A stretch of DNA of 64,000 nt from Turritopsis dohrnii. Its lineage: Eukaryota > Cnidaria > Hydrozoa > Anthoathecata > Oceaniidae. The stretch is from positions 310,001 through 374,000 of the forward strand of contig BQMF02000205.1 of NCBI GenBank assembly GCA_027922465.2. The letters are read 5' to 3'. Every line of letters begins with the position of its first letter. Within the stretch, counting starts at the first letter, position 1. The translations under genes and the position numbers were made by a program. Shown here one piece after another: positions 18,825 through 35,346 of this stretch. The notes beneath the pieces were generated by a model that ran no database searches, was not told where the DNA came from, and saw only the letters and a list, made by a program, of their open reading frames with translations.

Positions 18825-19391
18825 TTAATTCGATTTGTACTTGAAGCTTCGATTTAGATTCTTGAATATGTATTTCTGTCGGAGATTTCTTTCAATTCTC
18901 CAATCGGAACGTAGTTCGGTCTTGATCGTGAACCACGGATGGCACACAGTAGCGGTTCTTATTAAACTGAACATGATTTTCCGCTTCACCCATGCTGCAG
19001 TGTCACTAAAATTTACGTTATGTTTATCAGCAATTAGCTCAGCTAAACGGCTGAAGAATCGTTTGGTTTCTTTACTCATTCCACCATTGGATGAGAAGAT
19101 CAAGGGGGTAAACGTGCCTAGTTCTTTGTTTTGAACTTTCTCGTTATATAGCTTCTTCTTGAGCTTTTCCATCGATCTGAATAAAGTTTGAAGCGATTGG
19201 TTTCGATAGCTCGGAGCAAAGGGATAGAAAACCCTGACGTCAACAAATGCTCTTGCATGCGTTGCCAAAAGCCTCTTGCACTCACATCGGCCCTGCATTG
19301 CTCATTTTCATCATTCGTTGCTGTTTTGTAGCAACGGTTCTTTCTGCACGTCCTTGCAGACTGTCGAGAGGATGTCAGCAGTGATGTCTCG
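18825..19391 (-). pseudogene. Broken transposon-associated coding domain, copy 1
   Basis: Minus-strand fragments in at least three frames form one protein segment. The DITADILSTVCKDV-type part sits nearest 19,391, then SARGFWQR, then FVDVRVFYPFAPS, then FTPLIFSSNGGM and a C-terminal MFSLIRTATVC. The first shift lies near 19,310 and another near 19,255. A second copy of the same domain is at 51.3-55.7 kb. I recognise the domain as recurrent in transposon-like predicted proteins of cnidarians, often near reverse transcriptase, but cannot assign a superfamily. The Polinton left end abuts it, and the Polinton terminal repeat accidentally supplies an ATG that fuses with this fragment. Confidence 0.6.
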
Positions 19392-19614
19392 AGTAGTAGG
19401 TGAGGGTCAATATAGGCCCACTTTTCGATATTCATAATTTTATCGAGAATTTACTATATTTTTGAACGGTGAAAATAAGGGGGATTTCCCCATGACATTA
19501 TTAACGTGAAACGCGTTAATAAGTGTTATCGTGAATGAATTTCGATTAGTATAGAGGTTTGGTGTGTATCCCATCATCGGCTACGATTCTTTTGTCATAA
19601 TAAGCGCTGAGACC
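19392..19614. repeat. Polinton left terminal inverted repeat
   Basis: 223 bp, the inverse of 35,124-35,346 with one base difference seen (19,544). Its inner part is an orphan antisense copy of the last codons of the polymerase gene. Confidence 0.95.
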
Positions 19615-19627
19615 ACACAAGCACATA

Positions 19628-20224
19628 CTAGTAACCATTTTCGGTTATGGACTTTTTCAGGTTTTGAAGTTCTACCATCAAACTTTTTTGAAATTGATTT
19701 TGGGTTTCAGTCTCCATCTTTCTATCTGTAGAACTGAGTCCTTCTAAAGCTTTGTAATATGTTCCCTGCAAAACCTGGAATTCTTTGTAATTGATCCTTC
19801 CATCAGTCAGCGCCTGACTTATGTTAGTTTCGAAGACAGAAATTGAGGATGTAACAATATCATATAATTTTATCACTTTTTCTACTTTCTTTTGATATCT
19901 TTTGATGACAGCTGTGGTAAGTCCGGTACAGATAGAGCCGGCTAAGGCTACACCACCTAATCCTGCAGAAATAGGTATTCCGATAATCGTAGCCCCTGTT
20001 GCAATTGAACCGATGCCAGAGCCAATGGTTATAGCGCTTGAGCTAGCATTTAGTAGCATCGATCGTTCTATCGCCTTGTTGTATCTCTTGAGCTTGATGC
20101 TAAACTTGTCTTTCAGTCTTATCAACTCGTCAAACTCAGAATTTATTACGCTTGCGTTAAACTTTTCCTGCTCATTCAAATCCTCAGGAGCAGTTGGTAA
20201 CTTTGGATAAATTTTAAAATTCAT
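19628..20224 (-). CDS. Polinton protein with glycine-rich hydrophobic core, 198 aa
   Basis: Function unknown. The N-terminal 60 residues are charged and helical. Residues about 63-107 are a long hydrophobic, Gly/Ala/Ile-rich stretch (GSGIGSIATG..AGLGGVALAG) like a glycine-zipper membrane segment. The rest is amphipathic and ends with NLKKSITENGY. The ATG at 20,222-20,224 lies 60 bp from the divergent gene at 20,285, so the two probably share a promoter region of pure A/T. It sits just inside the left terminal repeat. A membrane-inserted or membrane-remodelling role in the particle is possible but is only an inference from composition. Confidence 0.75.
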   Translation of the reverse strand: MNFKIYPKLPTAPEDLNEQEKFNASVINSEFDELIRLKDKFSIKLKRYNKAIERSMLLNASSSAITIGSGIGSIATGATIIGIPISAGLGGVALAGSICTGLTTAVIKRYQKKVEKVIKLYDIVTSSISVFETNISQALTDGRINYKEFQVLQGTYYKALEGLSSTDRKMETETQNQFQKSLMVELQNLKKSITENGY

Positions 20225-20284
20225 ATTTAGAGAGAGATTATGTTATATAATAATTAATAATAATTTATCCTCTAAATAAATAAA

Positions 20285-21574
20285 ATGACAGACATTGACA
20301 TAGATCCTTTTGGAGAACATGGTATGACGACAGATGAAACAACCGATGAGACGTTTCCTCTCATACCGACCGGTGATCGTACGGGTGCACAGATACATAC
20401 ATCAGGTGATCATGAAACATCATTCGGTGGTCACAGTCTGCATACTAGAGTTTTGAAAGAACTAGTTGAAGGGCTGTATGATAGATTATCCGAAAAATAC
20501 CGGTCAAAACCTGAGGTGTTATATACCGATCAGTTTGAAATTAGAGATGGTGAATTATACTACAAAGACAGTAGCAAACCATTGACAAACAATGGAAGAC
20601 TAAGGGCTATTGATACTATAGAGAAAATACTTGGCAAGAAAAGACTGCGTAATTTAGGGTATGATATACCTAAGAGCAAATTTTCAGCCAGACAGGAAGC
20701 TGTACTTAACAAAATATCAGAAGAGCTTCCTTCGACATCTAAAATCACAAAATCGAGTGATGTAGAGCTTGAGGAAATTACGGGGAACATTGCAAATAGT
20801 ACGGAAGATCTAATTTCATTAATAAGACAACAATCGGTCGATCATGAAACAACTCAGACCGGTGATCTATTTGAATATCCTGTGCGTGAGCTGTTAGGAT
20901 TGGATAAAGCGCTGAGAAACATACGAGGAGGTCTTCAGGAAGAGGCTGCAAAAAAGGTTCGAATAGAACAGCATATCGATAAGGAGAAAAACAAGTTGGA
21001 AGAAATGGAAAATGATGCGACATACACGGACGAACAACGAAAAGAGGTTGAAGATCGAATGGAGGGATTACGTGAAGAGTTGAAAGCTAGGAAAGAGAAC
21101 ATTGATATTCTCAAAGGTAAATTAAACAGTCAAGTTACGAACATCAAAGAAACCATTGCTAAAGTCCTCGACAAAGATACCTCATTAGGTGAAAGGATAC
21201 GAACACTATTCCGCGAACAAGGTATCACAATCATTAGCATTCTGACAGCGTTTGGTATGGCTATCGGTGTCCTTGTGGAAGCTTTGTTACCGAGAGGGTC
21301 AGCAGCTGGAAGCTCTTCACAAAATCCTGACAAAGGTGGTGATAAAAAGGACGGTGGAAAGGAATGGATAAAAAATAAACTAAAAGCGTTAGCATCACTT
21401 CTAGGTAGATTGGCGTCTAAAGCGGCAGAGGCTTTACCTGGAATAATTGGGTCTATCGTATCGTGGATACTCACTAGAGCAAAAGAAGCGGTCGGTTGGT
21501 TAAGTGAAAATTTATGGGCTCTGATTGTAGGGGTTGGATGGATGATCTATACGTACCTCGTGACTAGACGGTAA
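20285..21574 (+). CDS. Polinton coiled-coil membrane protein, 429 aa
   Basis: Function unknown. The N-terminal 55 residues are acidic and Thr-rich. Residues about 60-135 may be globular (LYYKDSSKPL..IEKILGKKRLRNLGYDIP). Residues about 215-290 are a strongly charged coiled coil (KEKNKLEEMENDATYTDEQ and following). A hydrophobic segment lies at about 311-335, a Gly/Ser/Lys linker follows, then amphipathic and hydrophobic helices, the last at about 406-425 before TRR. Stalk plus membrane anchor suggests a structural or attachment protein of the particle, but no family was recognised. The start ATG follows an A/T-only leader. It is the only plus-strand gene in the left 4 kb. Confidence 0.75.
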   Translation: MTDIDIDPFGEHGMTTDETTDETFPLIPTGDRTGAQIHTSGDHETSFGGHSLHTRVLKELVEGLYDRLSEKYRSKPEVLYTDQFEIRDGELYYKDSSKPLTNNGRLRAIDTIEKILGKKRLRNLGYDIPKSKFSARQEAVLNKISEELPSTSKITKSSDVELEEITGNIANSTEDLISLIRQQSVDHETTQTGDLFEYPVRELLGLDKALRNIRGGLQEEAAKKVRIEQHIDKEKNKLEEMENDATYTDEQRKEVEDRMEGLREELKARKENIDILKGKLNSQVTNIKETIAKVLDKDTSLGERIRTLFREQGITIISILTAFGMAIGVLVEALLPRGSAAGSSSQNPDKGGDKKDGGKEWIKNKLKALASLLGRLASKAAEALPGIIGSIVSWILTRAKEAVGWLSENLWALIVGVGWMIYTYLVTRR

Positions 21575-21644
21575 CCATCTGAGTGTGTATATATGTTACA
21601 CGTATCGTGTAACATAATTTTTGTACTCAAATTGAATATACATT

Positions 21645-22067
21645 TTATCTTTCAAAATACCACACAATTCCACCAATACCGAGCATACTCAGAGCTATAA
21701 AAGCCAATTCCCTTTCATGTTGATCATGACTCGGTGTATAAAAGTCGCTCAATACAGGCTCTCGTGGTAGCGGTTCAAGATGATTACTAAATACACTATT
21801 GTACTCTCTCATTGCATCATTTAGTTCTACGAATTTTGAATCAGCCTTCTTTTCGAGCAATAGTTGTTTATTGATGAAATCGATCCTTTCCTGTCGTTTT
21901 TGCTGCCATTCAATCTGTGCTTTTTGTAATTTTTCTATGGCCAAATCATGACGTTTTCTTTCCTTATCGATTCTATCTTTGGATAAACTTGAAAACAGAT
22001 AGCTTGATCCTGTGAAAGCCAAAGCGTTAGCTAAAGCTCCGCCCAACATCATTGCGATAGAAGCCAT
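21645..22067 (-). CDS. Polinton small membrane protein, 140 aa
   Basis: Unknown function. It has an N-terminal hydrophobic Ala/Gly/Met-rich segment (residues 1-27), a coiled coil of about 55 residues rich in Lys/Glu/Gln (RKRHDLAIEKLQKAQIEWQQ), a Pro-containing linker and a C-terminal hydrophobic helix (AFIALSMLGIGGIVWYF). It would bridge two membrane contacts. The stop codon at 21,645 lies about 70 bp from the convergent 429-residue gene. It starts 2 bp after the end of the next upstream gene, so the minus-strand cluster up to 23,255 looks co-transcribed. Confidence 0.75.
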   Translation of the reverse strand: MASIAMMLGGALANALAFTGSSYLFSSLSKDRIDKERKRHDLAIEKLQKAQIEWQQKRQERIDFINKQLLLEKKADSKFVELNDAMREYNSVFSNHLEPLPREPVLSDFYTPSHDQHERELAFIALSMLGIGGIVWYFER

Positions 22068-22069
22068 AT

Positions 22070-22297
22070 TTAGATATTGATATTTTCAGGCAAAATCTTT
22101 TGTTTGATTAAGTAGTCCTTTGTCACTTCACTAGCGGCGATAATGGCAACTAGTTTTCCCGTATCTTCCAAGTCGAACTTTTGAATAGAGGGAGGTGTCA
22201 TTTTTAATACCTTTTTTCCTAGCATAGAGTAGCCGATAGCGAAAACGCAGACGACTGATGCATGATATAAATCGTTGATGATACTTTTCTTGTCCAT
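22070..22297 (-). CDS. Polinton small membrane protein, 75 aa
   Basis: Unknown function. One hydrophobic helix near the N-terminus (ASVVCVFAIGYSMLGKKVL) and a second weaker one (KLVAIIAASEVTKDYLI). ATG at 22,295-22,297, with a 24-bp gap to the upstream gene. Its stop codon lies 2 bp before the next start, which supports reading it as a real gene despite its size. Confidence 0.7.
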   Translation of the reverse strand: MDKKSIINDLYHASVVCVFAIGYSMLGKKVLKMTPPSIQKFDLEDTGKLVAIIAASEVTKDYLIKQKILPENINI

Positions 22298-22321
22298 GTT
22301 ATTATATACATTTTTTTCTTT

Positions 22322-22666
22322 TTATTCCATTTCATGTTTATTGATTTTCACTGGTATTTTAGATTTTTGTGGAAAGGGGGTGGATGGTGACCCACGGGGT
22401 AATATTTGCTCTTTCTTTTTATACACAAAATAAGCAAATCCACCAACTAAACCGATAGCTATTATTCCACCTACACCATAGGTGTAGTTCATAGGTTGTT
22501 CATTTGGTTTGGTGAGAGAGTCATCGGGCTTCTTCACTTCTTTTTGAGGTGACACTTGTTTTAATTCTTCTCGTTTTTTACGGTTGTATTCCGCCAACTT
22601 CTTACCCGCTTCAACCTTTTTAGGGTTCTTCGTTGTCACTTGAATGGGGGTCTGTTCTTCTGACAT
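22322..22666 (-). CDS. Polinton Lys-rich single-pass membrane protein, 114 aa
   Basis: Unknown function. Residues 1-60 are hydrophilic and Lys/Pro/Gln-rich. One transmembrane helix lies at about 67-86 (GVGGIIAIGLVGGFAYFVY), followed by a basic tail. The start overlaps the end of the upstream 211-residue gene by 47 bp in another frame, which is typical of compact virus genomes. Confidence 0.7.
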   Translation of the reverse strand: MSEEQTPIQVTTKNPKKVEAGKKLAEYNRKKREELKQVSPQKEVKKPDDSLTKPNEQPMNYTYGVGGIIAIGLVGGFAYFVYKKKEQILPRGSPSTPFPQKSKIPVKINKHEME

Positions 22667-23255
22667 TTTTATTATCTACTGTATTTATATTATCATCGGA
22701 TTTATTTAAATTCCTTTCATTGATATAATGCCTCCCGGTAATAAGTCCAACACTGAGTGGTGCTAATAATGAGCCGAATTTATAATATAAGTCACATGTA
22801 AATCTTTGAAGGGCAGAGTTTAAGAAGGGGTCATTTTCCAGGTCATTGCTCAACGCATCTTGATTGTTTATTCCTAACGTTGCACAAGCCCCCATGGAAT
22901 AAATACGTATCAGTGATTTCCCCAAGGATTTTACCATTTGACCTGATAGTTTAGCTTCATAGATACTAAAAAGTTTTTCTACCTCTTCATCTTTGAGTTT
23001 GTTAATCTGCTCTTCCGTGTACATTTTCCCTAAGTATAGCTTGCTATTACCGGTTAAGACACACTCGAGTAATTTTTGTCTTTTACCATCTGAAGGTGGA
23101 AATTCACCCGGAACATCATAACTCTGGTTGATTAAATTATCGATCGCTGTTTCCACCATTTTTATTAGAGAGAGGTATTTTTTTAACACAAAATAAAAGT
23201 AAAATAGCGAGATCAGCAGTATGCTTAATAACATGAAGTTGACATATTCTATCAT
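22620..23255 (-). CDS. Polinton signal-anchored protein, 211 aa
   Basis: Unknown function. The first 32 residues are a strong hydrophobic anchor (MLLSILLISLFYFYFVL) followed by Lys. Residues 33-165 look globular, with Cys and Gly residues (GACATLGINNQDAL), then a hydrophobic stretch (GSLLAPLSVGLITG) and an acidic, Asn/Asp-rich tail. I chose ATG 23,253-23,255 because it includes the anchor; an in-frame ATG at 23,157-23,159 would give a soluble form. It is the first gene of the four-gene minus-strand cluster, directly after the 44-bp repeat array. Confidence 0.72.
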   Translation of the reverse strand: MIEYVNFMLLSILLISLFYFYFVLKKYLSLIKMVETAIDNLINQSYDVPGEFPPSDGKRQKLLECVLTGNSKLYLGKMYTEEQINKLKDEEVEKLFSIYEAKLSGQMVKSLGKSLIRIYSMGACATLGINNQDALSNDLENDPFLNSALQRFTCDLYYKFGSLLAPLSVGLITGRHYINERNLNKSDDNINTVDNKNVRRTDPHSSDNEEP

Positions 23256-23288
23256 TTTGTTGTGTTTGTTATAATTTTCTTATACTCT

Positions 23289-23464
23289 CTTATAATTTTG
23301 TTGAAATTTGTTGTGTAAGAGTTTGCTGTCCTCTTATAATTTTGTTGAAATTTGTTGTATAAGAGTTTGCTATCCTCTTATAATTATGTTGAAATTTGTT
23401 GTATAAGAGTTTGCTATCCTCTTATAATTTTGTTGAAATTTGTTGTATAAGAGTTTGCTGTCCT
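23289..23464. repeat. Four 44-bp tandem repeats, each with a CTCTTATA/TATAAGAG dyad
   Basis: Four near-identical 44-bp units (CTTATAATTTTGTTGAAATT..). Each carries an 8-bp inverted pair CTCTTATA..TATAAGAG. The array lies in the gap between the minus-strand membrane-protein cluster and the plus-strand gene at 23,565. Position and dyads suggest a bidirectional promoter or a protein-binding array; function is inferred. Confidence 0.9.
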
Positions 23465-23499
23465 CTTATAATTATGTAAGACAAAATAATTATAAGAGG
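23462..23499. promoter_or_regulatory. Perfect 13-bp inverted repeat (hairpin) closing the array
   Basis: CCTCTTATAATTA at 23,462-23,474 and TAATTATAAGAGG at 23,487-23,499 are exact inverses with a 12-nt loop. It uses the same TATAAGAG half-site as the array and lies 66 bp before the start of the PP1-binding gene. Confidence 0.75.
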
Positions 23500-23564
23500 A
23501 TGATGATGTTTAATAATATATTCTAACATTGTTAAATAAATAAACATTGTTTACTTAAACAATT

Positions 23565-23813
23565 ATGTTCGATGATGAATCCTCAGATGATGATATTATA
23601 TTTTCCCATCAAGATACAAAAAGGGTTACTTTTAATGATAAAGTAATGGTCCATTATATCTATGCTTGTGAATCTCGTAGAAGTAACTGGATAGAGGCTG
23701 CTGCTGACAGAGTACGCTTTGAATCGAGGATTAAACATATTGGCAAAATTCTAGAACCTGTATTGAGACGTAAATTATTCTCTTACAGTAGTCTTACAGT
23801 AGTCTTACAGTAG
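23565..23813 (+). CDS. PPP1R15 (GADD34/CReP)-like PP1-recruiting protein, 82 aa
   Basis: Likely regulatory subunit that brings protein phosphatase 1 to phosphorylated eIF2alpha and restores translation under stress. Residues 1-18 are acidic. Residues 20-23 (RVTF) within KRVTFND are the PP1-docking RVxF motif. V29-H30 sits where the family has its hydrophobic pair. Then W42 and the block ADRVRFESRI (47-56) follow, the W..A.DR.RF..RI pattern of the PPP1R15 C-terminal helix that contacts actin and substrate. This whole order and spacing is seen only in PPP1R15 and in the viral proteins modelled on it (herpesvirus ICP34.5, asfarvirus DP71L). It is minimal: nothing but the C-terminal core is kept. 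The last nine residues run into an 11-bp repeat array. Family assignment by eye is strong; activity is inferred. Confidence 0.85.
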   Translation: MFDDESSDDDIIFSHQDTKRVTFNDKVMVHYIYACESRRSNWIEAAADRVRFESRIKHIGKILEPVLRRKLFSYSSLTVVLQ

Positions 23814-23851
23814 TCTTACAGGAGTCTTACAGTAGTCTTATAGGAGTCTTA
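23786..23851. repeat. 11-bp tandem repeat, six copies
   Basis: Six copies of CAGTAGTCTTA (two with G or T changes) starting inside the 3' end of the PP1-binding gene and ending before the ATPase gene. The array supplies that protein's last residues and stop, so its C-terminus can vary with copy number. Confidence 0.85.
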
Positions 23852-23895
23852 TATTTTTTGTTACAAGAGTCATGTAACAAATAACGTCAACCTGT

Positions 23896-24501
23896 TTAAC
23901 AAATCACGTGCGTTCTCGGATGTTCCATTCTCATGACTAGGCACGCGTGTTTCCCTTCTTTCAGTTTTTCCTTGACATTTTTCAATTCTTCTTGCGTCTC
24001 AATGACATCGTTCTCTTCATGAATGGTGGCTAGATCGTTTCTATCTTTTGGATACCACACATATAACATTTTAGCTTGCCGTCGTAAATTTTTAGGTATA
24101 GCTGTGTATGATTGTGTAAGTAACCATAGCGAATGATTTCGATGTCTACCGCTAATTGCCAACTCGAGCAAAGAGTTTCTCTTTTTGTCCAATTTTTCAT
24201 CAGCTATGATGTCGTCAATGAGGAATAAGGTTTTGTATCCGGCGCAAAAGAAGTCCATTTTCTTAATATATTCATACAAAGATCCTTCCGGTTCAATTAA
24301 AATCACATAGCTGTCATTCCAGAACCACTTCCGATCTCTGTAAGTCTGATTCCATCTTAAGGTGGGACATATAATCACGATGAAATCAAAGTGATCAAAG
24401 TATTCATTTTCTAATAATTTTACAACACGATCCGTTTTACCGCACGATGTTGGTCCAACGAATAATGCTGTGTGAGGTTCTTTCATGTAAAGTGTGTTCA
24501 T
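23896..24501 (-). CDS. DNA-packaging ATPase (FtsK/HerA-like, Polinton ATP)
   Basis: Motor that pumps element DNA into capsids. Walker A is GPTSCGKT at residues 16-23; Walker B is TLFLIDD at 91-97; a sensor-type strand SLWLLTQS lies at 124-131, with an arginine-rich SGRHR just before it. At 201 residues it has the compact size of Polinton and virophage packaging ATPases. It starts 5 bp downstream of the major capsid stop on the same strand, the usual capsid-ATPase pairing. The frame is intact. Confidence 0.92.
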   Translation of the reverse strand: MNTLYMKEPHTALFVGPTSCGKTDRVVKLLENEYFDHFDFIVIICPTLRWNQTYRDRKWFWNDSYVILIEPEGSLYEYIKKMDFFCAGYKTLFLIDDIIADEKLDKKRNSLLELAISGRHRNHSLWLLTQSYTAIPKNLRRQAKMLYVWYPKDRNDLATIHEENDVIETQEELKNVKEKLKEGKHACLVMRMEHPRTHVIC

Positions 24502-24505
24502 TTTA

Positions 24506-25822
24506 CTAATATAATGCAGACATAAATTGACCGTTTTGTATGTTTAATTGAGCATCCATTATTAGATATATATATGCGTTTAAGTTTCCTGCAGTTTCAG
24601 CGGTCTTTTCAATCTGTAAAGTGATGCCTTCACTCGCATTTTCAATCTTTCGACCGGTGCCATGCAAAGCATTCTCATCAATTGTTCTGAAATCTAACCA
24701 TAGAGCATATTTGTTTGTTAAGTAATCAGAGACTTTTACATCATGTAATCCCAAGCGCTTTCGGTTTTCACCGACGCTATTATCTTTTGGTTTTCCTTCA
24801 GCAAAATACTTGCAAATCTCATTGTATTGTTCAAACGGCTGCATCCCTTGAGCAAAAAGTTGGTTAGGCTTACCCTCGACGATGACAGATACCTTTTCGA
24901 TCTTTGGATTATAGAATTTACAGGTTTCTCGTTTGTAGGATTTTTCTTCTTCAAATAGAACTAAAATACCCTTCAAAGATTTGGCTGGTGTGTTGAATGA
25001 CCAATTCCACGTTGTGTCTGACTTGTTTACTCTAATTTGTCTGTGTCGCAAAATCCTATCATAGAGCAAAGCCATGTTTTGATATTCAGAAGCGATTTGT
25101 CTAGCCAACGTGGGTTGTGTCACAAGCTCATATTCAAGTGAGATGTTAGATATTTTGTATTTACCGTCTGGGTTTTTTCTTTGACCTGCGGCAGAAGTTG
25201 GAGGGTCAGAATAGATAACTCGGTTATAGTCGTTAAATGTGATCTCATAGCAAAGCCTATTACCTAAACCCGCTTGATAATATGGGATAGTACTATCTAG
25301 CATCTCAAAGTCGAGTGGAATGACAAACTTGTTTTTATAGGTGTCAGCAATGGCTTTGTCTTCTGCATCAGTGGTGTCTTTATCAGAAGCATCAATCCTC
25401 AATTTCATACAATTCTCTGTACACCCATCGTCGATGATGATACCCTGTCTTATCGCGTTTCTCTTTTCAAACTTGGTTAACCATAAATCTCTGTAACACC
25501 CGAAAAGATCAAAGTCATCGATACTCAATATCTCGTTACCTTCGAACTTGACAGCCAACTTTTTAACGATAGCTCTCCCAATGTTACTGACTAATGTTCT
25601 TTTTGAGTCAGCTTTCGATTCGAGTTCAATATCAAAACTTAGATTAGTTGTTCCTGGGATAATGACATCATCACTTCCTAAATTTGGAAACCTAACCAAT
25701 AATAACTGATTTTGATCGATCTCACTCGGATTGTGTGTGACAATTACTTTTTGACGAGAGCCTTTTACACCGCGGGCAGTTCTAAGTGAACGTTCTGGAT
25801 TTAACCTCTTTCCATACTCCAT
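24506..25822 (-). CDS. Polinton major capsid protein
   Basis: 438 residues, intact. The sequence is beta-rich with a Pro/Gly pattern and has no enzyme motif. I recognise the N-terminal run (PSEIDQNQLLLVRFPNLGSD) and the FDLFGCYRDLWLTK block as a family conserved among cnidarian Polintons. Gene order (minor capsid, major capsid, ATPase on one strand) and length fit the double jelly-roll major capsid of this element class; the fold is inferred, not seen. The ATG at 25,820-25,822 follows an A/T-only leader with TATATAATTAA-like sequence. Confidence 0.8.
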   Translation of the reverse strand: MEYGKRLNPERSLRTARGVKGSRQKVIVTHNPSEIDQNQLLLVRFPNLGSDDVIIPGTTNLSFDIELESKADSKRTLVSNIGRAIVKKLAVKFEGNEILSIDDFDLFGCYRDLWLTKFEKRNAIRQGIIIDDGCTENCMKLRIDASDKDTTDAEDKAIADTYKNKFVIPLDFEMLDSTIPYYQAGLGNRLCYEITFNDYNRVIYSDPPTSAAGQRKNPDGKYKISNISLEYELVTQPTLARQIASEYQNMALLYDRILRHRQIRVNKSDTTWNWSFNTPAKSLKGILVLFEEEKSYKRETCKFYNPKIEKVSVIVEGKPNQLFAQGMQPFEQYNEICKYFAEGKPKDNSVGENRKRLGLHDVKVSDYLTNKYALWLDFRTIDENALHGTGRKIENASEGITLQIEKTAETAGNLNAYIYLIMDAQLNIQNGQFMSALY

Positions 25823-25864
25823 TATTAATTATGATATATAATTAATTATTACTTTTATCTCGTT

Positions 25865-26425
25865 TTAGCGGATATGCAAAACAACGGTTCTTCCTAGGTC
25901 TTCTTTTAGCATATTACCATGTTGATCTGTGATTTTCAACGTGAGAGACTGAAATACACCATTTTTTAATTTTTTTGTACTGAGGGTTTTTAGGCTCAAC
26001 ATATGTGAAGTCACTATATTCAGCCTTGTGATGGGATAGTAAAATATCACTTAGCTTACCATCCTCAAGATTTTGAGTGTTGTCGAGTTCAGAGAGATGC
26101 AAATTAATTTTGATTTTTTAGCGAGCTTATTTGTTCTGATTATTCGAGGGTCTTTGCTTAATGAGGTAAGTTCTGCATCACCCTTTAAAAAGGCACCTGC
26201 TAAAAAGGCATTCAATTCCCTACTCGTGAATGTTCCTTGAGGTACCAACTTTTTAGCTTTCCCATCAGCAGACAGTTTCAGTGTTAGATCTGTGGTTATT
26301 TCATACGTAACATTGTCTGCAAACATATCAACCAATGCAATTTCTTTTGAGCCATCCAAGTTTTGAATGGGGTAAGATAGATATACAGTCTTCTCACCCC
26401 TTACGAGATTTACCGTGATATACAT
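25865..26425 (-). pseudogene. Probable Polinton minor capsid (penton) protein, two frameshifts
   Basis: The frame starts with ATG at 26,423-26,425 and reads a beta-rich sequence (VNLVRGEKTVYLSYPIQNLD). It leaves frame near 26,100-26,120 beside a T6 run and again near 25,960-25,980 beside T6-T7 runs. The three pieces together span about 187 codons, the size of a single jelly-roll minor capsid protein, and end at 25,865. Assignment rests on the place directly upstream of the major capsid gene and on composition. Both breaks at T runs could be sequence errors rather than true mutations. Confidence 0.55.
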
Positions 26426-26464
26426 TTTCTTGTATTAAATAGAAGATAATATTATTAAATAATA

Positions 26465-27493
26465 ATGGAGGATATTTTTAAATATAATCCCAATGCGGCT
26501 TATAAGCCAAATGGAGGACAAGACCTTCAGATATTGAATGCTAAAGATTTATACAAACAAACAATTATCGTCTCTGAGAGCGGTTCTTTCCCCGCAACTT
26601 TTCCAAATATATTTACTAATTACGAAATGGATGAAATGATCAACGTATGAAAATTTGGCAGAAACAACCATTTAAATTATGGCAAACACAAATCAACTTT
26701 GTCACTTGGTGTGCTTCAAGCGCTTGTGGGGTCAGTTCTGAACACCTGAAAGAAGGTCGCTCTACTCCTATGATTAGAGCAGTATATCGTTTTCATGTCT
26801 ATTATCATATTAGACGAATCATTAAGCGTCTGCAGACACCTCTACCTTTTGAAGATAGTTTCAACCAATACTGATAATCCTTATAATAAAGAAGAGTTTT
26901 TAAAAATCTGTAGTGAATATGGTGTCGATTCTGATCCTAAAAAATACACAGGACAATATTTTTATAGCTCGTATCAAAAAAGACGTAGAGACTATCCAAC
27001 GCCAGGTCTGAGTTATTTCACAGACGACTCCATGACACGATGGATTATAGAAAAATCTAAAGGCTTTACAAAAACAGGTCTTGTAAAAATTTCAGAGAGT
27101 GTTAGAGCATATGCTTATCTTCTTCTTAGTTCGCAAGCCTCAGCTCGTTCTTCTATTTTAGGTAATAATTCAAGCGCTTTGACAGCTCAAAGAGTTTTTA
27201 TGAACAACTTTGAAGACATTGTTAACCGCAGAGTTGATATTCAAGATGACATTAAACGTTATCAAGATACTTTAAATTATGCTTCAAGCAAAGTTGATTA
27301 TTCTGTTGGACAAGGTATTTACATGTTACCTAGTGACATGAATCTAAACATCAAGTCGGGAGTGTCTGGTTATAATAATAAAATTCTCATATCTAATGAC
27401 AACTTGAGCCTTGGAAGAAACAAAATGATTAATGTTATGCAAGAGCATCATATTTCGCCCAAAGTGACTAGCTCTCCAACACAACAAAAATAA
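26465..27493 (+). pseudogene. Conserved Polinton protein of unknown function, several frameshifts
   Basis: It starts MEDIFKYNPNAAY at 26,465. The frame is lost near 26,645, changes at least once more before 26,880, and is then open for about 200 codons (DNPYNKEEFLKICSEYG.., SMTRWIIEKSKGFTKTGL, ARSSILGNNSSALTAQRVF). It stops at 27,493 just after a SPKVTSSPT segment. A second copy of the 3' end at 28.1 kb keeps reading into an acidic linker and one hydrophobic helix (IALVLAITTMFSIWYVF), so the intact gene probably ended in a membrane anchor. I recognise the family as common in cnidarian Polintons but know no function. Confidence 0.6.
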
Positions 27494-27611
27494 AAGTTTA
27501 CAAAAGGAAGTTCATAAAAGAGTAGTGAGTCAAACAGATTCACTCCCATCTCACGAAGAAGAGAAAATAGCTTTGGTTTTAGCGATTACCACGATGTTTA
27601 GTATATGGTAT
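27423..27611 (+). repeat. Duplicated 3' gene end, copy 1
   Basis: Near-identical to 28,109-28,277, apart from an 18-bp segment missing from copy 2 and small changes around the stop. Copy 1 has a shift that ends the frame early. Confidence 0.85.
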
Positions 27612-28108
27612 TATTATTATTATTGAAAACAAAACTCCCTTAGGAGAACCCCCTAGGGTTTTTGTTGTTGTTGTTGTTGTTGTGATACCCTAGAGGGTTT
27701 TTAATTCATTGTCTTCGATCTAACCGGCACTCCACCCTGGCTTCTCCAATCCACCAGCTCTGAGCTCTACCCCTAGATCTTAGACTATTTGTGTGACTAC
27801 TTACGAACTCCGACTACTACGCACGCGAATGGCCGTTCATGATCTGTTCGAGTATATTACATCTAGTCACATTGTTTTTCCGACAACTTTTGGCACATTT
27901 TGTGGTGAATACCGGGAGCGGACGGCACCATCCAGTTCCAATCTAGCCGCTCCACTAGACCTTCCCTTTCCGGCAGACTCTGTCGCCTGTTCACCACAAT
28001 TTTCAAATTATTCCGCTCTTGGGTTTTATATCATTCATTTAGACCTTAGTGTCTGCTTGTGGTGTCCCTCGGAACGCTATAATTTTGTTTTTTATTTTGA
28101 TTACATAA
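27612..28108. other. GC-richer segment between the duplicated gene ends
   Basis: About 500 bp, visibly less A/T-rich than the rest of the element. It includes TTG repeats (27,661-27,682) and two CCCTAG(A)GGGTTTT-type blocks. An open frame at 27,793-28,116 has no recognisable domain and is not called. It looks like material not originally part of the Polinton. Confidence 0.5.
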
Positions 28109-28316
28109 CAAAATGATTAGTGTTATGCAAGAGCATCATATTTCACCCAAAGTGACTAGCTCTCCAACAAAAAATAAAAGTTCACAAAAGAAAGTTCAAA
28201 CAGATTCACTCCCATCTCACGAAGAAGAGAAAATAGCTTTGGTTTTAGCGATTACCACGATGTTTAGTATATGGTATGTATTTTCGCTGATCAGCGTATG
28301 TAGTTTGCAATTATAG
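28109..28316 (+). pseudogene. Duplicated 3' gene end, copy 2 (67 codons)
   Basis: It starts at an internal ATG equivalent to the one near 27,425, reads VMQEHHISPKVTSSPT, an acidic Ser-rich linker and a hydrophobic helix, and ends after 67 codons in sequence of the following SINE-like insertion. It is a partial duplication of the gene at 26,465-27,493. Whether it is expressed is unknown. Confidence 0.6.
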
Positions 28317-28633
28317 CCGGCATTGTGGATACATGCTAACACTTCTAAGCCCTGGCGTTTGTTGAATTTCGATCGAAATGACGGTAACCTGAATGTCTCT
28401 ATGGACCAGAGAAACCTGACAGTGATAAATCACCCAGACACAATGCTAACCATTCCGCGATATATTCAACACAACTGCGGGGAAGTGCGCACTCATGCAA
28501 GTTTTACAACCAGAACATGAGAGATCTACAACCGCCGAAGTATATATACTTCCTCTCAGACGAACTGCGTGGGGTTCGAACACACGACCTTGTTGTTACA
28601 AGTTAGCGTTCTTATCCACTAGACTACGCTGAT
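28288..28633 (-). mobile_element. tRNA-derived SINE-like insertion inside the Polinton
   Basis: On the minus strand the head starts near 28,632 with CAGCGTAGTCTAGTGGATAAG (A-box-like) and has TGTTCGAACCCC (B-box-like) about 35 bp later. The body runs toward 28,290. CGCTGATC occurs at both ends and may be the target duplication. The anticodon stem does not pair as in a working tRNA, so this is not called a tRNA gene. Confidence 0.55.
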
Positions 28634-29112
28634 CTGTATGTTATATGTATTGTTAGCTTATTTATGTTATAAAGTTAAACTACTACAAACTGCTTTTTAC
28701 TAGCATTTTTATGAGATATTTAATTGTTTACAATTATGAGTAATTTGTGGTTATAATAACACGTTTCATAACTCGTATCGCGTTATGAAAACAAAGATAT
28801 ATTAGCTATAGTAGGGAAATTCCCGAAATTATATGATTTTGGACCAACATCCGCACTTTCCTATCTCTTCTTCTACCAAATCGGAGCAAAGAAATGTTAT
28901 TGACCAAGAACAACTAAATCTATTCTCTAACATATCTTTTATAATTAAACCGCTATTACAAATAACGTCCTCGTCTTTATAATCCATATCCGTAATTTCG
29001 TATTTATTAATCATACAAAATTATATTTAAAACTGCTTACGTGTTATTTGAGAATTTTGTTATGTAATAGAAACTTACCACGTACACACACAAAAAACTG
29101 ATATAAAAAAAT

Positions 29113-29475
29113 ATGATCACAAGTATATATAGACAATGGAATTCCCAACAGTTGATACATTCGAACGAAAACATGGAACAAATTATTCCGATCATAAAGT
29201 GGAGAGAGCTATCTGAAAACGTGATTTATCATGTTAAATCTGTGGGTGAGATAGACACACCCGCATCTGAATTTGGTTCTGGAACAGCTATGTATGCAGA
29301 GGTGCAAGACAGAAGAGGAAACTTATATAAGACATGGTTACCTGCAAGACTTTGCGTTGAATTGAAGGATTATGGTTGGAATTCTAGAGAAGCCTTTGTC
29401 AGACCGAGGGGGCTCAAACAATCTGAAAAGAATCCTGAAAGACAATTCTTTGATTATGACATTATGTGGCGCTAA
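29113..29475 (+). CDS. Small Polinton protein, possible OB-fold DNA-binding protein
   Basis: 120 codons from 29,113. The more likely start is the in-frame ATG at 29,173 (MEQIIPIIKW), giving 100 residues. The pattern W..L.....Y.V.........A.V.D..GN.Y.TWLP.RL is an alternating beta-strand layout with conserved aromatic residues. A beta-barrel single-strand DNA-binding role would fit beside the replication genes, but this is a guess from strand pattern. A GATATAAAAA box lies just upstream. It is followed by the convergent integrase gene. Confidence 0.65.
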   Translation: MITSIYRQWNSQQLIHSNENMEQIIPIIKWRELSENVIYHVKSVGEIDTPASEFGSGTAMYAEVQDRRGNLYKTWLPARLCVELKDYGWNSREAFVRPRGLKQSEKNPERQFFDYDIMWR

Positions 29476-29533
29476 ACCTCGTCGCTAGACGACTTATCTT
29501 TACTTGTTTCTAGTAAAGATACTTTTGTACGAT

Positions 29534-30533
29534 TCACCAACCTTGCACATAATCAGGAGGTAGCTCTGTATCTTCAGGTATCAACATCAACTCTTCTTTT
29601 ACAAAAGCTCGTTCAGGTCCATCTTGAAGGTAATACATTACACGGTTACCTGGTTGATCTACTACCTCACTCAATCTATATGTCTTCTTTGACCATATCC
29701 TATCTGTTGCTCTTTTTCGATGGTCGTCGTGCTCTTCACCCGGTTGCAATAGATATCTATACAAACCATCTTGAGGTAATTTTTCTTCGGGTGGATAGCT
29801 CTCTCGTTTAGCGAGAAGTACCTCTTTCATTTTAATAGCATCTTTCGGTTTCATATCGATCATCCGAGTCTTCGTATTGTTTAATCTATCTACAAGTTTA
29901 TACAAATATTTGACCCACGTAGATGATACCTTTTCCGAATCGTTTAGTTCTTGAGCATCTTGTATTTTGAATAAATTTTCGGCAAGTATCTTGTTCAACG
30001 CCTCGACAAACGCTGTATGGGTATGCTTATATTTAGTAGTTACTCTTTTAATTTCGACGTTATTCTTCTCCAACAGCTTTGTCACATCCGCTTTGAATTC
30101 TGAACCGTTATCACATTGAAATACTTTTGGATAGTTTAAGGGTGCCAACTCTATAGATATCTCTTATCATATCGGCAACCTCTTTGGCTTTCTTAGTCTT
30201 CAAAGGTCGGGCTACTTTGTAACGTGAAGCAACATCGATACCGGATAAGATGTACTTGTATTTATTACCATATAGCATATCACTAGGCATGTACAATATA
30301 TCAAATTGGTGAATCTCATTCGGTTTAGTCACTTCATAATGTGAACGTTCAACATGTTTCGGTGCTGGTAAATGTACTTGCCACAAAGCTTGTTTTGATA
30401 GCCACTTCTTAATTACCTTCGGTTTGAAGTCGAATCCTCTTAGATTGCGAACAGCCTTTTGTCCTTTCCACAAGTTTTGAGGTTGATAATAAATCTCTTG
30501 AAGTTTAGTGTCTGACATTTTATTTATAAACAA
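29534..30533 (-). pseudogene. Polinton integrase (DD35E), one frameshift
   Basis: Retrovirus-type integrase that inserts the element. The first frame (30,533 to about 30,150) holds the first catalytic Asp in HQFDILYMP. The second frame (about 30,150 to 29,534) holds the second Asp in CDNGSEF and the Glu in AFVEALNK, with exactly 35 residues between them. A C-terminal segment resembles the chromo/SH3-like tail of Polinton integrases. All three catalytic residues are present, so the only visible damage is one frameshift near 30,140-30,150. An N-terminal zinc finger was not seen. It lies between the small DNA-binding protein and the SAP protein. Confidence 0.88.
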
Positions 30534-30628
30534 CGTTTATTTTAGCTCGTTTTTTTTTTAACAAAAATGACACGAGAAAAGTGACTTAAACGTTGTTTAT
30601 TATCTTTATATAAAGCATAAACATAAAC

Positions 30629-30910
30629 ATGACCGACAAAATAGAATCAGATTACAAGTCAATGACTCGTGACGCTTTACGAAAATTATGTGCGTCACGA
30701 AAAATAAAATATGCTAACCTAATGAACAAAGCTAAATTACTCGAGGTGCTTGAGAAAAATGATGAGGATCCATCTTATATTCTCGATCCTGATACGAAAC
30801 AAACGGTTAATAAATACTGTTTAAACTGGATAAAAAATAACAGAGAAAAATATCTCAGCTCTCAAAAACGTTATAACGCTAAGAGAGAGAAGAGAGTTTA
30901 CAAAAAATAA
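30629..30910 (+). CDS. SAP-domain protein, 93 aa
   Basis: Residues about 8-43 form a SAP helix-extended-loop-helix motif (TRDALRKLCASRKIKYANLM..KAKLLEVLEK), a DNA-binding module. The rest is basic and aromatic (KRYNAKREKRVYKK). A TATATAAAG box lies about 20 bp before the ATG. The next gene, the polymerase, begins with another SAP motif, so the two may bind the same DNA region, perhaps the terminal repeats. The frame is intact. Confidence 0.8.
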   Translation: MTDKIESDYKSMTRDALRKLCASRKIKYANLMNKAKLLEVLEKNDEDPSYILDPDTKQTVNKYCLNWIKNNREKYLSSQKRYNAKREKRVYKK

Positions 30911-31061
30911 ATAAATTGACCTCGCTTTTGTTACTTAATCAACGAGTAACAAAAATAGAACACAAAGGTTACGAATCTTTTGGATGAAAAATTGGAAAAT
31001 GATAATTGAAAATTTTAAAAAGTGATTTAAAAAGATATAATCGTGATATATATATTACAAC

Positions 31062-34000
31062 ATGACTACTAGAAAAACTGTTGTTGAATTAAAAGCTCTC
31101 GCTAGAGAACGCGGTTTACATGGCTACTCAAAACTCAGAAAAGCTGAGTTGATCGAATTATTAGCAAACCCACCTATCCGACCTGTTCCACCACCAAGAC
31201 CTACTAGGTTTAACCGACCTGTTCCACCACCAAGACCTGTTCCATTTATTCCTACCCAACAAGATATGGATATCTTTGAACAGCGAGAAATGTCGAAAAA
31301 TAGACCTGTTGTGAAAAGTAAGTTGGATGAATGGAGAGATTGGTTGGTAAATCATGTACCTAAACCTATTAAGGAGAAAACTAGTAAAGCTTTCAAAACT
31401 TTGAAAGATAAGGTTCTCAATCTGTATAAAAAGGTTAGAAAAGAGAGAGATGAGGATGATAATGTTGTTCGAGAATTAGATCAACGACCACAAATCAACT
31501 TGATTGAAAGCCATCCAAGAATGAACAGGTATGAGGTTACCGGTATTTTGAATTCAGACCTATCAAATATGATTTTCAACCGAATCAGAGAAGATATCGA
31601 AATGCGTTCGAGGATTGTTTACAGTTTTACCGCTAAAATTTATCGGGGAAATGGGGAACTTGTAAAGTATGAAAAGACGCTTCCTGGAGAAGGTACTTAT
31701 ACAAGTTTATCCGCAATCGAGGAGTATATCAAACGATGTGAGAGTCGAAGGTTAGATTTGGACGATGATGGTGTTTGGTCTAAGGCGTATCTACCAGCAG
31801 CCGAGGTTTTCGATAGTCCGGGTGTCTATCAGGGGCGGGTTGAGTTTACTCGAATTATCATAAAAGTCATACACAGCAATGAACCGCTCATGGGTTGTGG
31901 TCCTCTGCCTGATTGGCTTCGTGAGAAAAGATGTATCCATGCGATAGATGATAAAAACGACAATCTGTGTGTATGGAGATGTCTTGCTATCTACTTTGGG
32001 TATGCTAAAAACAAACAAAGACCTGCTAAACGCACTACTAGCAAAGCGTTAGAACTAGCTCGAGATTTTTATGATGATCAGAACCTAAAAGTTAAGGATG
32101 TACGAGCTACAAAACTTGTTGATTTTGAAGGTATTGCCAAACAGTTTAATGTCAACATCCGTCTATATGAGCCGAAAAACCAACAGGTTTGGAAATTGGT
32201 GTTTGGTAAAAACCAGTTCAGAAAAAGTTTACCTTGTGTTGATATTGGTCTCTACGAGGGTCATTGCTTCTACATAAAGGATCTTGAAGGTTTGACGAAA
32301 CACTGGGAATGTGCCGGTTGCGAACAAAGGTTTAATAGACATGGTCACTATAATAGACACGTAACAGAAAACCTTTGTTCAGGAGGAAAAACCAAGCTGA
32401 TATGCAAAGGAGAAAAGTTTAAGCATATCATGAACAGTTCTGAGAAGGTATTCTATGGAGGTAACACCCAGTTCAGTTATGCCGGTTGTCGATGGATTGA
32501 AAAACAATCTGAAATCACAGGTAGACATATTCATCACGCTCTTTGTGGTCATGGTGGTGAGAGGTGTGTGAAGATTAACAAGCGAGAGATTCTTGTAGAT
32601 GGGTATGAACCTGAAAGTAATACTGTCTATCAATATTATGGTTGTAAATGGCATGGATGTCCTTGTATAAATGGTGATCCGAAAAAATATCGAGCTACAC
32701 TCGACATGGAGACAAAAATTAGGAGTCTTGGTTATGATGTTGTTTCAGTTTGGGCGTGTGAAATACCGGAGTTGAGTACCGTTGAGCTTGAAAAGAAGTT
32801 TGTTCCATACCCATACTTTATCGTGTTTGATTTCGAAACGATACTCCATAAACTCGACCAACAAGTTACGAGTGATCTGACTTTTGACACTAAACATATC
32901 GCAGTCAGCGTTGCTATTACCGATAACTTTACAAATAAACCCACCTTTCTTGTAAATTCGGATCCGGAAAAGCTCATCAAAGACTTTATTTTAGATTTAG
33001 AAAAACGGTGGGAGGGGGTCTCGAAATGTGTAAGTGAAAAATATTATTTGCCCGACAAAGATTCGCTTCCATCCTCCGTAGTTATGCGACACGAAGCTTG
33101 GTGTAATCAGGTTCCTGTGCTAGGTTTCAATAGCGGTAAATACGATCTCAATATGATCAAGAAGCACTTTGTTAATCATATGACAGAACAGGCCGGTTCA
33201 ATCTCTGTGGCTAAGAAAGAGAATAGCTATATGTTTTTGACGACCGGTCAGTTCAAATTTTTAGATGTGAAATCTTATCTTGCACCGGGTCTTTCTTTTG
33301 ATGGTTGGTGTAAAGCAAACAATTGTGAAGAACAAAAACTCGTCTTTCCTTATGAATGGATGGATAGTTTTGAGAAACTTTCTCACATAGGCACTGTTAA
33401 ATATGAAGACTTTTACTCGAGTCTCAAGAAAAAGATTTTAATCACTACTCAAGAATATGAAGATTTTAAGGTTGAATTTGAGAAACGTGGGTGTGTTACG
33501 ATGTTGGATTGGTTAAAAGAATATAACTTGGCTGATGTTGTACCGTTTGTTGAAGCTTTGGAGAAGACGCGAGAATATTATTATGGAGACGATATCGATA
33601 TGTTGAAGGATGCTGTATCTATTCCTGGAATTTCGATGACTTATGTTTTGAACAAAGCGTTGAAAATGAAAAAGAAAGGAGAGCCCGATTTGTATGCACC
33701 CGGACAACCTTGTACGTGTAAATGTTCGAAGGAATGTTATAAACAAGGTTGCAAAGACTGTTCAAAAATACGGAAAGATTGTGAGGCGTGTCCGAAAAAC
33801 AAAGCTTACGAGTTGTTGAAAACCGGTATGGTTGGTGGTCCGAGTATTGTGTTTTCCAGATACGCCGAAAGAGGTGTGTCAAAGATACGACCTCATAAAT
33901 ATAAAGACGCTAGGGATTGTGAGTCTGTTGTTGGTTTTGATGCGAATAGTTTGTATCTGTTTTGTTCGGGGCAGGAGATGCCCTGTGGAAAAGAGAGTTA

Positions 34001-35192
34001 CATCGAGGTCGAAAATCCTACAGATCCGGAGTATTTGAAAGAGTTTTCCGAGGGTGTATGTGACGGTTCTATTTTTGGTTTTTGTCAGGTAGATATTCAT
34101 GTTCCGGAAGGGTTAAAAGCTAAATTTGAAGAGTTTTCACCTCTGTTTGTTGTCGATAAAATTCCTGAGAGATTAGTACCTCAACATATGAAGGATTATC
34201 AAACAGCTACAAATAGGATGAGTATCAAAGGAACTAAAAAGTTATTGGGGGTTTGTAAGGCAAAGAAGATTTTATTATATACACCGTTGTTGAAGTGGTA
34301 TATAGATCACGGTTTGAAGGTGACTGGCGTATATAAAATTCTGAAATATACAGCGAGCAGGCCGTTCAAATGGTTCCCTAAAGAAGTAACCGATGCGAGA
34401 CGAGATGGTGATTCGAACCCTGCATTAAAACAACTCGGTGACACTCATAAACTGAAAGGTAATTCGTTCTACGGTAAAATGATTGAAGATCTCGAAAAAC
34501 ATACCAATAATACGTACACAAAATCCGAGGAGAATGTCGATAAGGCGTTCAGAAGCCCTTTCTTTGACGATCTTGAAGTCATTAATGAGACGTTTGAGAT
34601 CAAAGAGAGAAAACGTCAAGTCAATATAAATCGACCTTATCAATGCGGTATCGCCGTGTACCAATTTGCTAAATTGAGGATGCTTGAGTTTTACTACGAT
34701 TTTCTCGATAAATATATTGACAGGAGGGATTTTGAATTGATTCAAATGGATACGGATAGTATGTACATGGCTCTTTCGTCTAAGTCGTTGGATGATATCG
34801 TTAAACCCGAACTTAAGGATTATTATTTCAATCAAGGTAAAGCAGAATTTTTAAGTACTAGTAAATACCATGATAGAACACCGGGTTTATTCAAGGCGGA
34901 GTTCAATGGTACGCGAATGATTGCGCTCACCAGTAAATGTTATTTTGCGGAGAATCAAGATTTAGGTAAGTCAAAATTTAGTTGTAAGGGAATTTCAAAA
35001 AGACAAAATGAAATGAGTTGGCAGCGATACAAAGAAGCTTTGGATGGTAGTAAGGACATGGCACAAAATACAGGGTTTAGGGTAAGTAATCATAAGATCG
35101 TCACGTACACACAAAAGAAACTAGGTCTCAGCGCTTATTATGACAAAAGAATCGTAGCCGATGATGGGATACACACCAAACCTCTATACTAA
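31062..35192 (+). CDS. Protein-primed DNA polymerase B with SAP, OTU-like and nuclease-like N-terminal domains
   Basis: Replicates the element from its termini. 1376 residues, intact. Residues 3-37 are a SAP motif, followed by a proline-rich linker. About 300-405 resembles an OTU-like cysteine protease: D300, C303 in NDNLCVWRCLA and H401 in GHCFYIKDL. A C2H2-type finger follows (CAGCEQRF..H..H). About 500-560 looks like a restriction-type nuclease (D513, then GCKWHGCPC at 527-535, then VWACE). Exonuclease motifs are FDFETI (D590/E592), NSGKYD and YNLAD. Polymerase motif A is DANSLY (D960), motif B KLKGNSFYG (K1132), motif C DTDS (D1230/D1232), then SKCYF. The last 23 codons, including the stop, lie in the right terminal repeat. 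A GATATATATATTACA box precedes the ATG. Polymerase call is certain; the OTU and nuclease calls are by motif. Confidence 0.95.
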   Translation: MTTRKTVVELKALARERGLHGYSKLRKAELIELLANPPIRPVPPPRPTRFNRPVPPPRPVPFIPTQQDMDIFEQREMSKNRPVVKSKLDEWRDWLVNHVPKPIKEKTSKAFKTLKDKVLNLYKKVRKERDEDDNVVRELDQRPQINLIESHPRMNRYEVTGILNSDLSNMIFNRIREDIEMRSRIVYSFTAKIYRGNGELVKYEKTLPGEGTYTSLSAIEEYIKRCESRRLDLDDDGVWSKAYLPAAEVFDSPGVYQGRVEFTRIIIKVIHSNEPLMGCGPLPDWLREKRCIHAIDDKNDNLCVWRCLAIYFGYAKNKQRPAKRTTSKALELARDFYDDQNLKVKDVRATKLVDFEGIAKQFNVNIRLYEPKNQQVWKLVFGKNQFRKSLPCVDIGLYEGHCFYIKDLEGLTKHWECAGCEQRFNRHGHYNRHVTENLCSGGKTKLICKGEKFKHIMNSSEKVFYGGNTQFSYAGCRWIEKQSEITGRHIHHALCGHGGERCVKINKREILVDGYEPESNTVYQYYGCKWHGCPCINGDPKKYRATLDMETKIRSLGYDVVSVWACEIPELSTVELEKKFVPYPYFIVFDFETILHKLDQQVTSDLTFDTKHIAVSVAITDNFTNKPTFLVNSDPEKLIKDFILDLEKRWEGVSKCVSEKYYLPDKDSLPSSVVMRHEAWCNQVPVLGFNSGKYDLNMIKKHFVNHMTEQAGSISVAKKENSYMFLTTGQFKFLDVKSYLAPGLSFDGWCKANNCEEQKLVFPYEWMDSFEKLSHIGTVKYEDFYSSLKKKILITTQEYEDFKVEFEKRGCVTMLDWLKEYNLADVVPFVEALEKTREYYYGDDIDMLKDAVSIPGISMTYVLNKALKMKKKGEPDLYAPGQPCTCKCSKECYKQGCKDCSKIRKDCEACPKNKAYELLKTGMVGGPSIVFSRYAERGVSKIRPHKYKDARDCESVVGFDANSLYLFCSGQEMPCGKESYIEVENPTDPEYLKEFSEGVCDGSIFGFCQVDIHVPEGLKAKFEEFSPLFVVDKIPERLVPQHMKDYQTATNRMSIKGTKKLLGVCKAKKILLYTPLLKWYIDHGLKVTGVYKILKYTASRPFKWFPKEVTDARRDGDSNPALKQLGDTHKLKGNSFYGKMIEDLEKHTNNTYTKSEENVDKAFRSPFFDDLEVINETFEIKERKRQVNINRPYQCGIAVYQFAKLRMLEFYYDFLDKYIDRRDFELIQMDTDSMYMALSSKSLDDIVKPELKDYYFNQGKAEFLSTSKYHDRTPGLFKAEFNGTRMIALTSKCYFAENQDLGKSKFSCKGISKRQNEMSWQRYKEALDGSKDMAQNTGFRVSNHKIVTYTQKKLGLSAYYDKRIVADDGIHTKPLY

Positions 35193-35346
35193 TTGAAATT
35201 CATTCACGATAACACTTATTAACGCGTTTCACGTTAATAATGTCATGGGGAAATCCCCCTTATTTTCACCGTTCAAAAATATAGTAAATTCTCGATAAAA
35301 TTATGAATATCGAAAAGTGGGCCTATATTGACCCTCACCTACTACT
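35124..35346. repeat. Polinton right terminal inverted repeat
   Basis: 223 bp, inverse of 19,392-19,614. It contains the final codons and stop of the polymerase gene in its inner 69 bp; the outer part is noncoding. Confidence 0.95.

Follow-up and report, generated by a model that had tools for sequence, protein, structure and literature searches.

A putative PPP1R15-type recruiter of protein phosphatase 1 encoded in a Polinton/Maverick element of Turritopsis dohrnii

The 64,000-nucleotide (nt) stretch of the Turritopsis dohrnii genome analyzed here (contig BQMF02000205.1, positions 310,001 to 374,000; hereafter the window) contains a Polinton/Maverick element in which a plus-strand open reading frame (ORF) of 82 residues (23565..23813) encodes a protein of the PPP1R15 type. 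We propose, with a probability of about 0.7, that this protein consists of a PPP1R15 core by itself, that its gene is an accessory gene of the Polinton, and that the protein recruits protein phosphatase 1 (PP1) to eIF2alpha. This proposal is based on sequence homology, the retention of key residues and the presence of an intact frame inside the element.

Identification of the PPP1R15 core

The ORF starts with ATG, ends with TAG and is preceded at a short distance by an in-frame stop codon. In Pfam-A, its product scores 27.7 bits (E 2.6e-6) against the family PF10488 (PP1c_bdg), for which the curated cutoff is 26.1; residues 13-59 are aligned to positions 164-210 of the 230-position model. A search of the Protein Data Bank (PDB) sequences returned the cores of PPP1R15B from human (E 2.7e-5) and DP71L from African swine fever virus (E 1.2e-3), as well as weak matches to PPP1R15A, with E values of 0.17 and 0.52. 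Identical residues make up 40% (18 of 45) of the alignment with human PPP1R15B.

The protein alone has no relative at E <=1 among about 5.8 billion proteins, in a search that is blunt for so short a sequence (one candidate with shared words). A profile built from it and the PPP1R15B stretch gave 11 matches from 15 candidates, comprising one human PDB chain and ten unnamed proteins that we read, on visual inspection, as vertebrate PPP1R15B exons rather than viral genes. These ten proteins, with the window protein excluded, served as a control profile. Among the 1,513 six-frame segments of the window of at least 25 residues, this vertebrate-exon profile ranks the 82-residue ORF first, with an E value of 1.1e-7, and the runner-up has an E value of 0.69. 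It gives the protein 28.0 bits, compared with 12.6 bits for the best of its shuffled versions (4,626 scored of 5,000), and does not score the reversed protein. A DNA pattern for W-x3-A-x-D-R-x-R-F-x2-R-I likewise has a single match in the window and none in 100 shuffles of it.

Together, these results argue strongly for membership of the protein in the PPP1R15 family. A preliminary description, made from the letters of the window, had assigned the ORF to a GADD34/CReP-type core on the basis of RVTF (residues 20-23), V29-H30, W42 and ADRVRFESRI (residues 47-56). All of these features are present in the sequence, and the comparison of residues 18-60 with the PPP1R15 family by hidden Markov models, on which the assignment had been made to depend, gave a significant match, in agreement with the PPP1R15B, DP71L and vertebrate-exon results.

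Pattern scans of IMG/VR revealed no relative of the 82-residue protein, of its profile with PPP1R15B, of the capsid, ATPase and polymerase of the element, or of the polymerase alignment, and a pattern scan of GTDB contigs with the polymerase alignment revealed none either. Phage records contained two matches to the 82-residue protein, with an E value of 5 at best. The lone IMG/VR match to the W-x3-A-x-D-R-x-R-F-x2-R-I pattern was rejected: it is located on a contig that looks phage-like by eye and is out of frame with a long ORF.

Conservation of functional residues

Residues 14-58 of the ORF align to PPP1R15B without a gap, so that the PPP1R15B numbering can be transferred to it; the functional roles given here and below are those stated in the cited papers. 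The RVxF-type PP1 docking motif, RVTF (residues 20-23; 23622..23633, plus strand), contains V21 and F23 at the positions of V641 and F643 of PPP1R15B and of V16 and F18 of DP71L. It is followed by V29-H30 (23649..23654, plus strand), the same pair as V564-H565, which form the phi-phi motif of GADD34 (PMC10743859). Residues 38-56 (23676..23732, plus strand) comprise the arginine-pocket residue R38, W42 and the eIF2alpha/actin-contact stretch, according to the roles reported in PMC4394352 and PMC8500838. R38, W42, F52 and I56 correspond to R658, W662, F672 and I676 of PPP1R15B, of which R658 occupies the arginine pocket of PP1; mutation of R658, W662, F672 or I676 weakens actin activation in vitro, and the GADD34 counterparts of R658 and W662 matter markedly in cells (PMC4394352). 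D48, R51 and R55 correspond to D588, R591 and R595 of GADD34, positions taken from the structures of GADD34 with actin, PP1 and eIF2alpha (PMC8500838). Further downstream, LEPVL (residues 63-67; 23751..23765, plus strand) is in register with the LSAVL motif of DP71L, L63 and L67 being aligned with L57 and L61, both of which are required for DP71L activity (PMC5346070).

Of the 16 functional positions that we chose from these papers, 13 are kept (V641, F643, R658, W662, F672 and I676 of PPP1R15B, V564, H565, D588, R591 and R595 of GADD34, L57 and L61 of DP71L), two are changed (R587 and R594 of GADD34) and one, R612 of GADD34, is unplaced. The residues I652 and Y650 of PPP1R15B and the RARA motif and R618 of GADD34 stand outside this tally; I652 is kept as I32, Y650 is replaced by H30, as in GADD34, and R618 is unplaced.

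Proposed function and alternative explanations

Recruitment of PP1 to eIF2alpha by the 82-residue protein is likely, by analogy with the known holophosphatase. Residues 20-42, including RVTF, the V-H pair, R38 and W42, would lie along host PP1, while the stretch with D48, R51, F52, R55 and I56 would bind G-actin and bring phosphorylated eIF2alpha to PP1; once dephosphorylated, eIF2alpha would allow translation to continue while the element replicates. Expression of the gene, binding of PP1, actin and eIF2alpha, and an antiviral counter-defence are the parts of this proposal that we infer. That the host mounts an eIF2alpha-kinase defence is a plausible idea, but one that goes further than a single copy allows. 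Core fragments of about 70 residues, when expressed in cells, are enough to attenuate the stress response (PMC4394352). The N-terminal repeats of GADD34 help; viral and invertebrate PPP1R15s, which are not large proteins, have just the core in common (PMC10998612).

Several observations weigh against this function. Substrate binding in cells was reported to need the middle region of PPP1R15, actin being not required (PMC8633803), and this region is absent from the 82-residue protein; the literature thus disagrees on the core, which is sufficient in cells according to PMC4394352. R587 and R594 of GADD34, which contact eIF2alpha (PMC8500838), are replaced by A47 and S54. R612 of GADD34 cannot be assigned to a residue of the ORF: the ungapped count from W42 leads to F72, and a gapped alignment sets R68 against an Arg common to all ten vertebrate-like proteins. 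The RARA motif of GADD34 is absent from the 82-residue protein, as it is from DP71L (PMC5346070). The published eIF2alpha-binding consensus Rx[GNL]x(1-2)Wxxx[ARLV]x[DN][RG]xRFxx[RLVK][IVC] (Rojas 2015, as quoted in PMC5346070), a preference pattern distinct from the definition of PF10488, fails when applied strictly because the Gly position is occupied by S40; this is the single mismatch, at [GNL], and R38-I56 otherwise match. The weight of F52 and I56 is lessened by the weaker effect of the GADD34 F and I mutants, which lack the in vivo loss seen for R and W (PMC4394352).

The C-terminus of the ORF belongs to the same group of observations. An 11-nt tandem repeat of 6.5 copies (23781..23851, plus strand) encodes residues 73-82 and the stop codon, where PPP1R15 carries its actin-binding end (PMC4394352). 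The final residues of the PPP1R15 core were modelled as an actin-binding helix, and their deletion abrogates actin acceleration in vitro (PMC4394352). The actin clamp of the 82-residue protein is uncertain because its last ten residues come from this repeat. Two AlphaFold runs produced low-confidence helices, with mean predicted local distance difference test scores of 68.4 and 55.0; since PPP1R15 cores are natively unstructured (PMC4394352), these models count neither for nor against the proposed function. Finally, no relative beyond the vertebrate-like PPP1R15 exons was found in the protein database and in the IMG/VR scans, and the putative integrase of this copy is broken.

Some of these observations would be expected if RVTF recruited PP1 for another substrate or merely sequestered it, the two eIF2alpha-contact Arg and possibly the actin clamp having been lost. 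Besides A47, S54 and the repeat-encoded C-terminus, such an explanation could draw on the behavior of binary PPP1R15-PP1 complexes, which have no substrate selectivity in vitro in the absence of actin (PMC4394352), and on the placement of substrate binding in a region that the 82-residue protein lacks (PMC8633803). It is nevertheless unlikely, given that R38, W42, D48, R51, F52, R55 and I56 are kept, of which D48-I56 extend beyond the generic PP1-docking part, and that the active DP71L aligns across the same stretch. Recruitment of PP1 to eIF2alpha remains the preferred reading. It is quite unlikely, too, that a host PPP1R15 exon was captured by, or inserted into, this one copy and is carried passively, with no function for the element. 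A single copy was seen, the protein database yielded nothing closely related to it, and tandem repeats flank it on both sides; moreover, in most of the ten vertebrate-like proteins the similarity to the others sets in abruptly, at VTF or shortly before it, in the manner of an exon boundary. Against capture stand the intact frame from ATG to stop, the identity of 40% to PPP1R15B over 45 residues, a comparison made with the human gene and not with that of the host, and the codon usage.

The in-frame codon score of the ORF, 0.120 bits per codon, exceeds those of 312 of 326 wrong-frame windows, though 58 of the 66 windows taken from nine further ORFs of the element score higher. The G+C contents at the three codon positions are 0.44, 0.34 and 0.26 for the 82-residue ORF and 0.39, 0.41 and 0.34 for the nine others. 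Codon usage supports coding modestly, and on the minus strand beneath the ORF the longest stop-to-stop frame listed has 55 residues. The length of the ORF alone is weak evidence, since 31 of 2,000 shuffled versions of the surrounding 640-nt gap contain an ATG ORF of at least 82 residues. This would allow a chance resemblance in a non-coding gap, which is, however, strongly disfavoured by the profile scores, the shuffle controls and the absence of the motif from the window shuffles, and can be regarded as very improbable.

Relation to known PPP1R15 proteins and to Polintons

PPP1R15B/CReP and PPP1R15A/GADD34 resemble the window ORF in containing the RVxF motif, the arginine-pocket R, the W and D-x2-RF-x2-RI in the same order. 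Mammalian PPP1R15 proteins exceed 600 residues and carry N-terminal extensions, whereas the Polinton encodes a bare protein of 82 residues; the Gly-Pro preceding the W in PPP1R15 is Ser-Asn in the ORF, and two eIF2alpha-contact Arg are replaced. The short form of African swine fever virus DP71L is, like the ORF product, a stand-alone core, of 70-72 residues (PMC5346070). When aligned, the two agree in the V and F of RVxF and in both leucines of LSAVL, and neither has the RARA motif. DP71L belongs to an asfarvirus and not to a Polinton, and its match to the ORF is weaker than that of PPP1R15B. ICP34.5 of herpes simplex virus and coGV-gp036 of an insect virus, the granulovirus coGV, come from other kinds of DNA virus and are likened to the ORF here by their description rather than by sequence comparison. 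They are among the viral PPP1R15 cores named in the legend to Fig. 1B of PMC4394352, and viral cores are known from herpes simplex virus, African swine fever virus and coGV (PMC4394352, PMC5346070, PMC10807198). Because the core of coGV is already known, there is no novelty in finding a PPP1R15 module in an invertebrate virus as such. What appears to be new is a predicted PPP1R15 core in a kind of element from which none is known to us.

Accessory genes of Mavericks/Polintons are described in PMC8097293; in the window, such a position, beside the ATPase gene, is taken by the 82-residue gene. The word "phosphatase" is absent from PMC8097293, PMC11071296 contains no mention of GADD34, PPP1R15, "protein phosphatase" or eIF2, and PMC11071308 contains none of phosphatase or GADD34. 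No report of a PPP1R15 core in a Polinton was found in our searches of open-licence papers, which does not establish its absence from print.

Particles of animal Polintons have not yet been observed (PMC8097293), and their viral lifestyle is open. The question could be tested with one small protein, because a pure transposon would hardly need a counter to antiviral translation arrest. If the proposed function is true, the viral PPP1R15 mimics would extend to a further group of elements, and the element may blunt the antiviral translation shut-down of its host. More tentatively, and with somewhat less than even confidence, functional eIF2alpha-phosphatase recruiters may be carried by animal Polintons as well as by other DNA viruses, in which case Polintons would meet translation shut-off as viruses that infect or replicate; exchange of the gene with large DNA viruses, or its acquisition from a host, may account for its presence in Polintons.

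The Polinton/Maverick element and its surroundings

The element occupies 15,955 bp (19392-35346) and is bounded by 223-nt terminal inverted repeats (TIRs) with 222 pairing positions. The left TIR (19392..19614, plus strand) starts with AGTAGT, and the right TIR (35124..35346, minus strand) ends with ACTACT. In its end motif, size and TIR length the element agrees with vertebrate Mavericks, for which PMC8097293 gives (AGT)2//(ACT)2 as the commonest end motif, sizes of 12.7-24.6 kb and TIRs of 46-1,447 bp. No perfect 6-bp target-site duplication is present, the flanks GTCTCG and AATGTC being different. The sequence ATGTC occurs on both sides of the element at unequal distances (19382-19391 and 35347-35356), which may mean a rearranged flank.

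The packaging ATPase of the A32/FtsK type (23896..24501, minus strand) matches Pox_A32 above the cutoff (E 2.9e-8) and the terminase phrog_2666 (E 1.1e-11). The adjacent ORF (24506..25822, minus strand) is a probable major capsid protein, identified by a weak Capsid_N match below the cutoff (E 0.045), with no match in PDB or PHROG. The putative integrase of the retroviral type (29534..30536, minus strand) is spread over two overlapping open frames, with no single frame, and has an rve match (E 3.3e-4) on 30111-30518 of 21.3 bits, below the cutoff of 32.6. Because of this split, the window copy is probably unable to move by itself now.

A putative type-B DNA polymerase of 1376 residues with an N-terminal Rho_N/SAP-like stretch (Rho_N, E 3.6e-7) is encoded at 31062..35192 (plus strand); its assignment draws on its relatives and on motifs that we take to be those of PolB. 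It has 1298 relatives at E <=1e-10; among the 120 listed none is named, and their identities over residues 880-1376 range from 62% to 83% for the best. No Pfam polymerase domain was called in this ORF, Rho_N alone being above the cutoff, and it has no match in PDB. The polymerase ORF ends inside the right TIR (shared positions 35124-35192), so that its last codons recur, reversed, at the left end of the element.

The 82-residue ORF is located in a 640-nt gap between the ATPase gene and a small ORF without a Pfam match (22620..23255, minus strand), the two being divergently oriented. Upstream of it lies a 44-nt tandem array of 4.3 copies (23287..23477), the units of which bear hairpin arms TATAAGAG/CTCTTATA; an inverted copy comes next, at 23482-23501. 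The single-strand DNA fold of 23287-23510 has a z score of -10.05, and none of 200 shuffles is as stable. The array may serve as a divergent promoter/operator or in replication. The setting in a Polinton/Maverick, the accessory position of the gene and the hairpin-bearing repeats near it, all put forward in the preliminary description, hold in view of the TIRs, the A32-type ATPase and the rve-type match (below its cutoff) around the ORF, its location between the packaging-ATPase gene and the small ORF that lacks a Pfam match, and the stability of the array.

Elsewhere in the element, the ORF groups at 25865-26434 and 26459-26874 are short or frame-split, indicating some decay despite the near-identical TIRs. 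Direct repeats at 27419-27611 and 28107-28277, 666-688 nt apart, include 82 identical nt and 72 nt at 93% identity; located at the 3' end of the ORF 26795-27493, they point to an internal duplication or insertion.

Outside the element, the regions 36632-38371, 39484-40548, 49269-50909 and 2711-3895 contain, as a group, Mutator-like and DDE_4-type transposases, an endonuclease ORF of the long interspersed nuclear element type and a fragment of a Cys-loop receptor gene. The surroundings are those of an animal-type, repeat-rich genome. The endonuclease ORF includes GDVETNPGP, which is presumably a 2A-like sequence.
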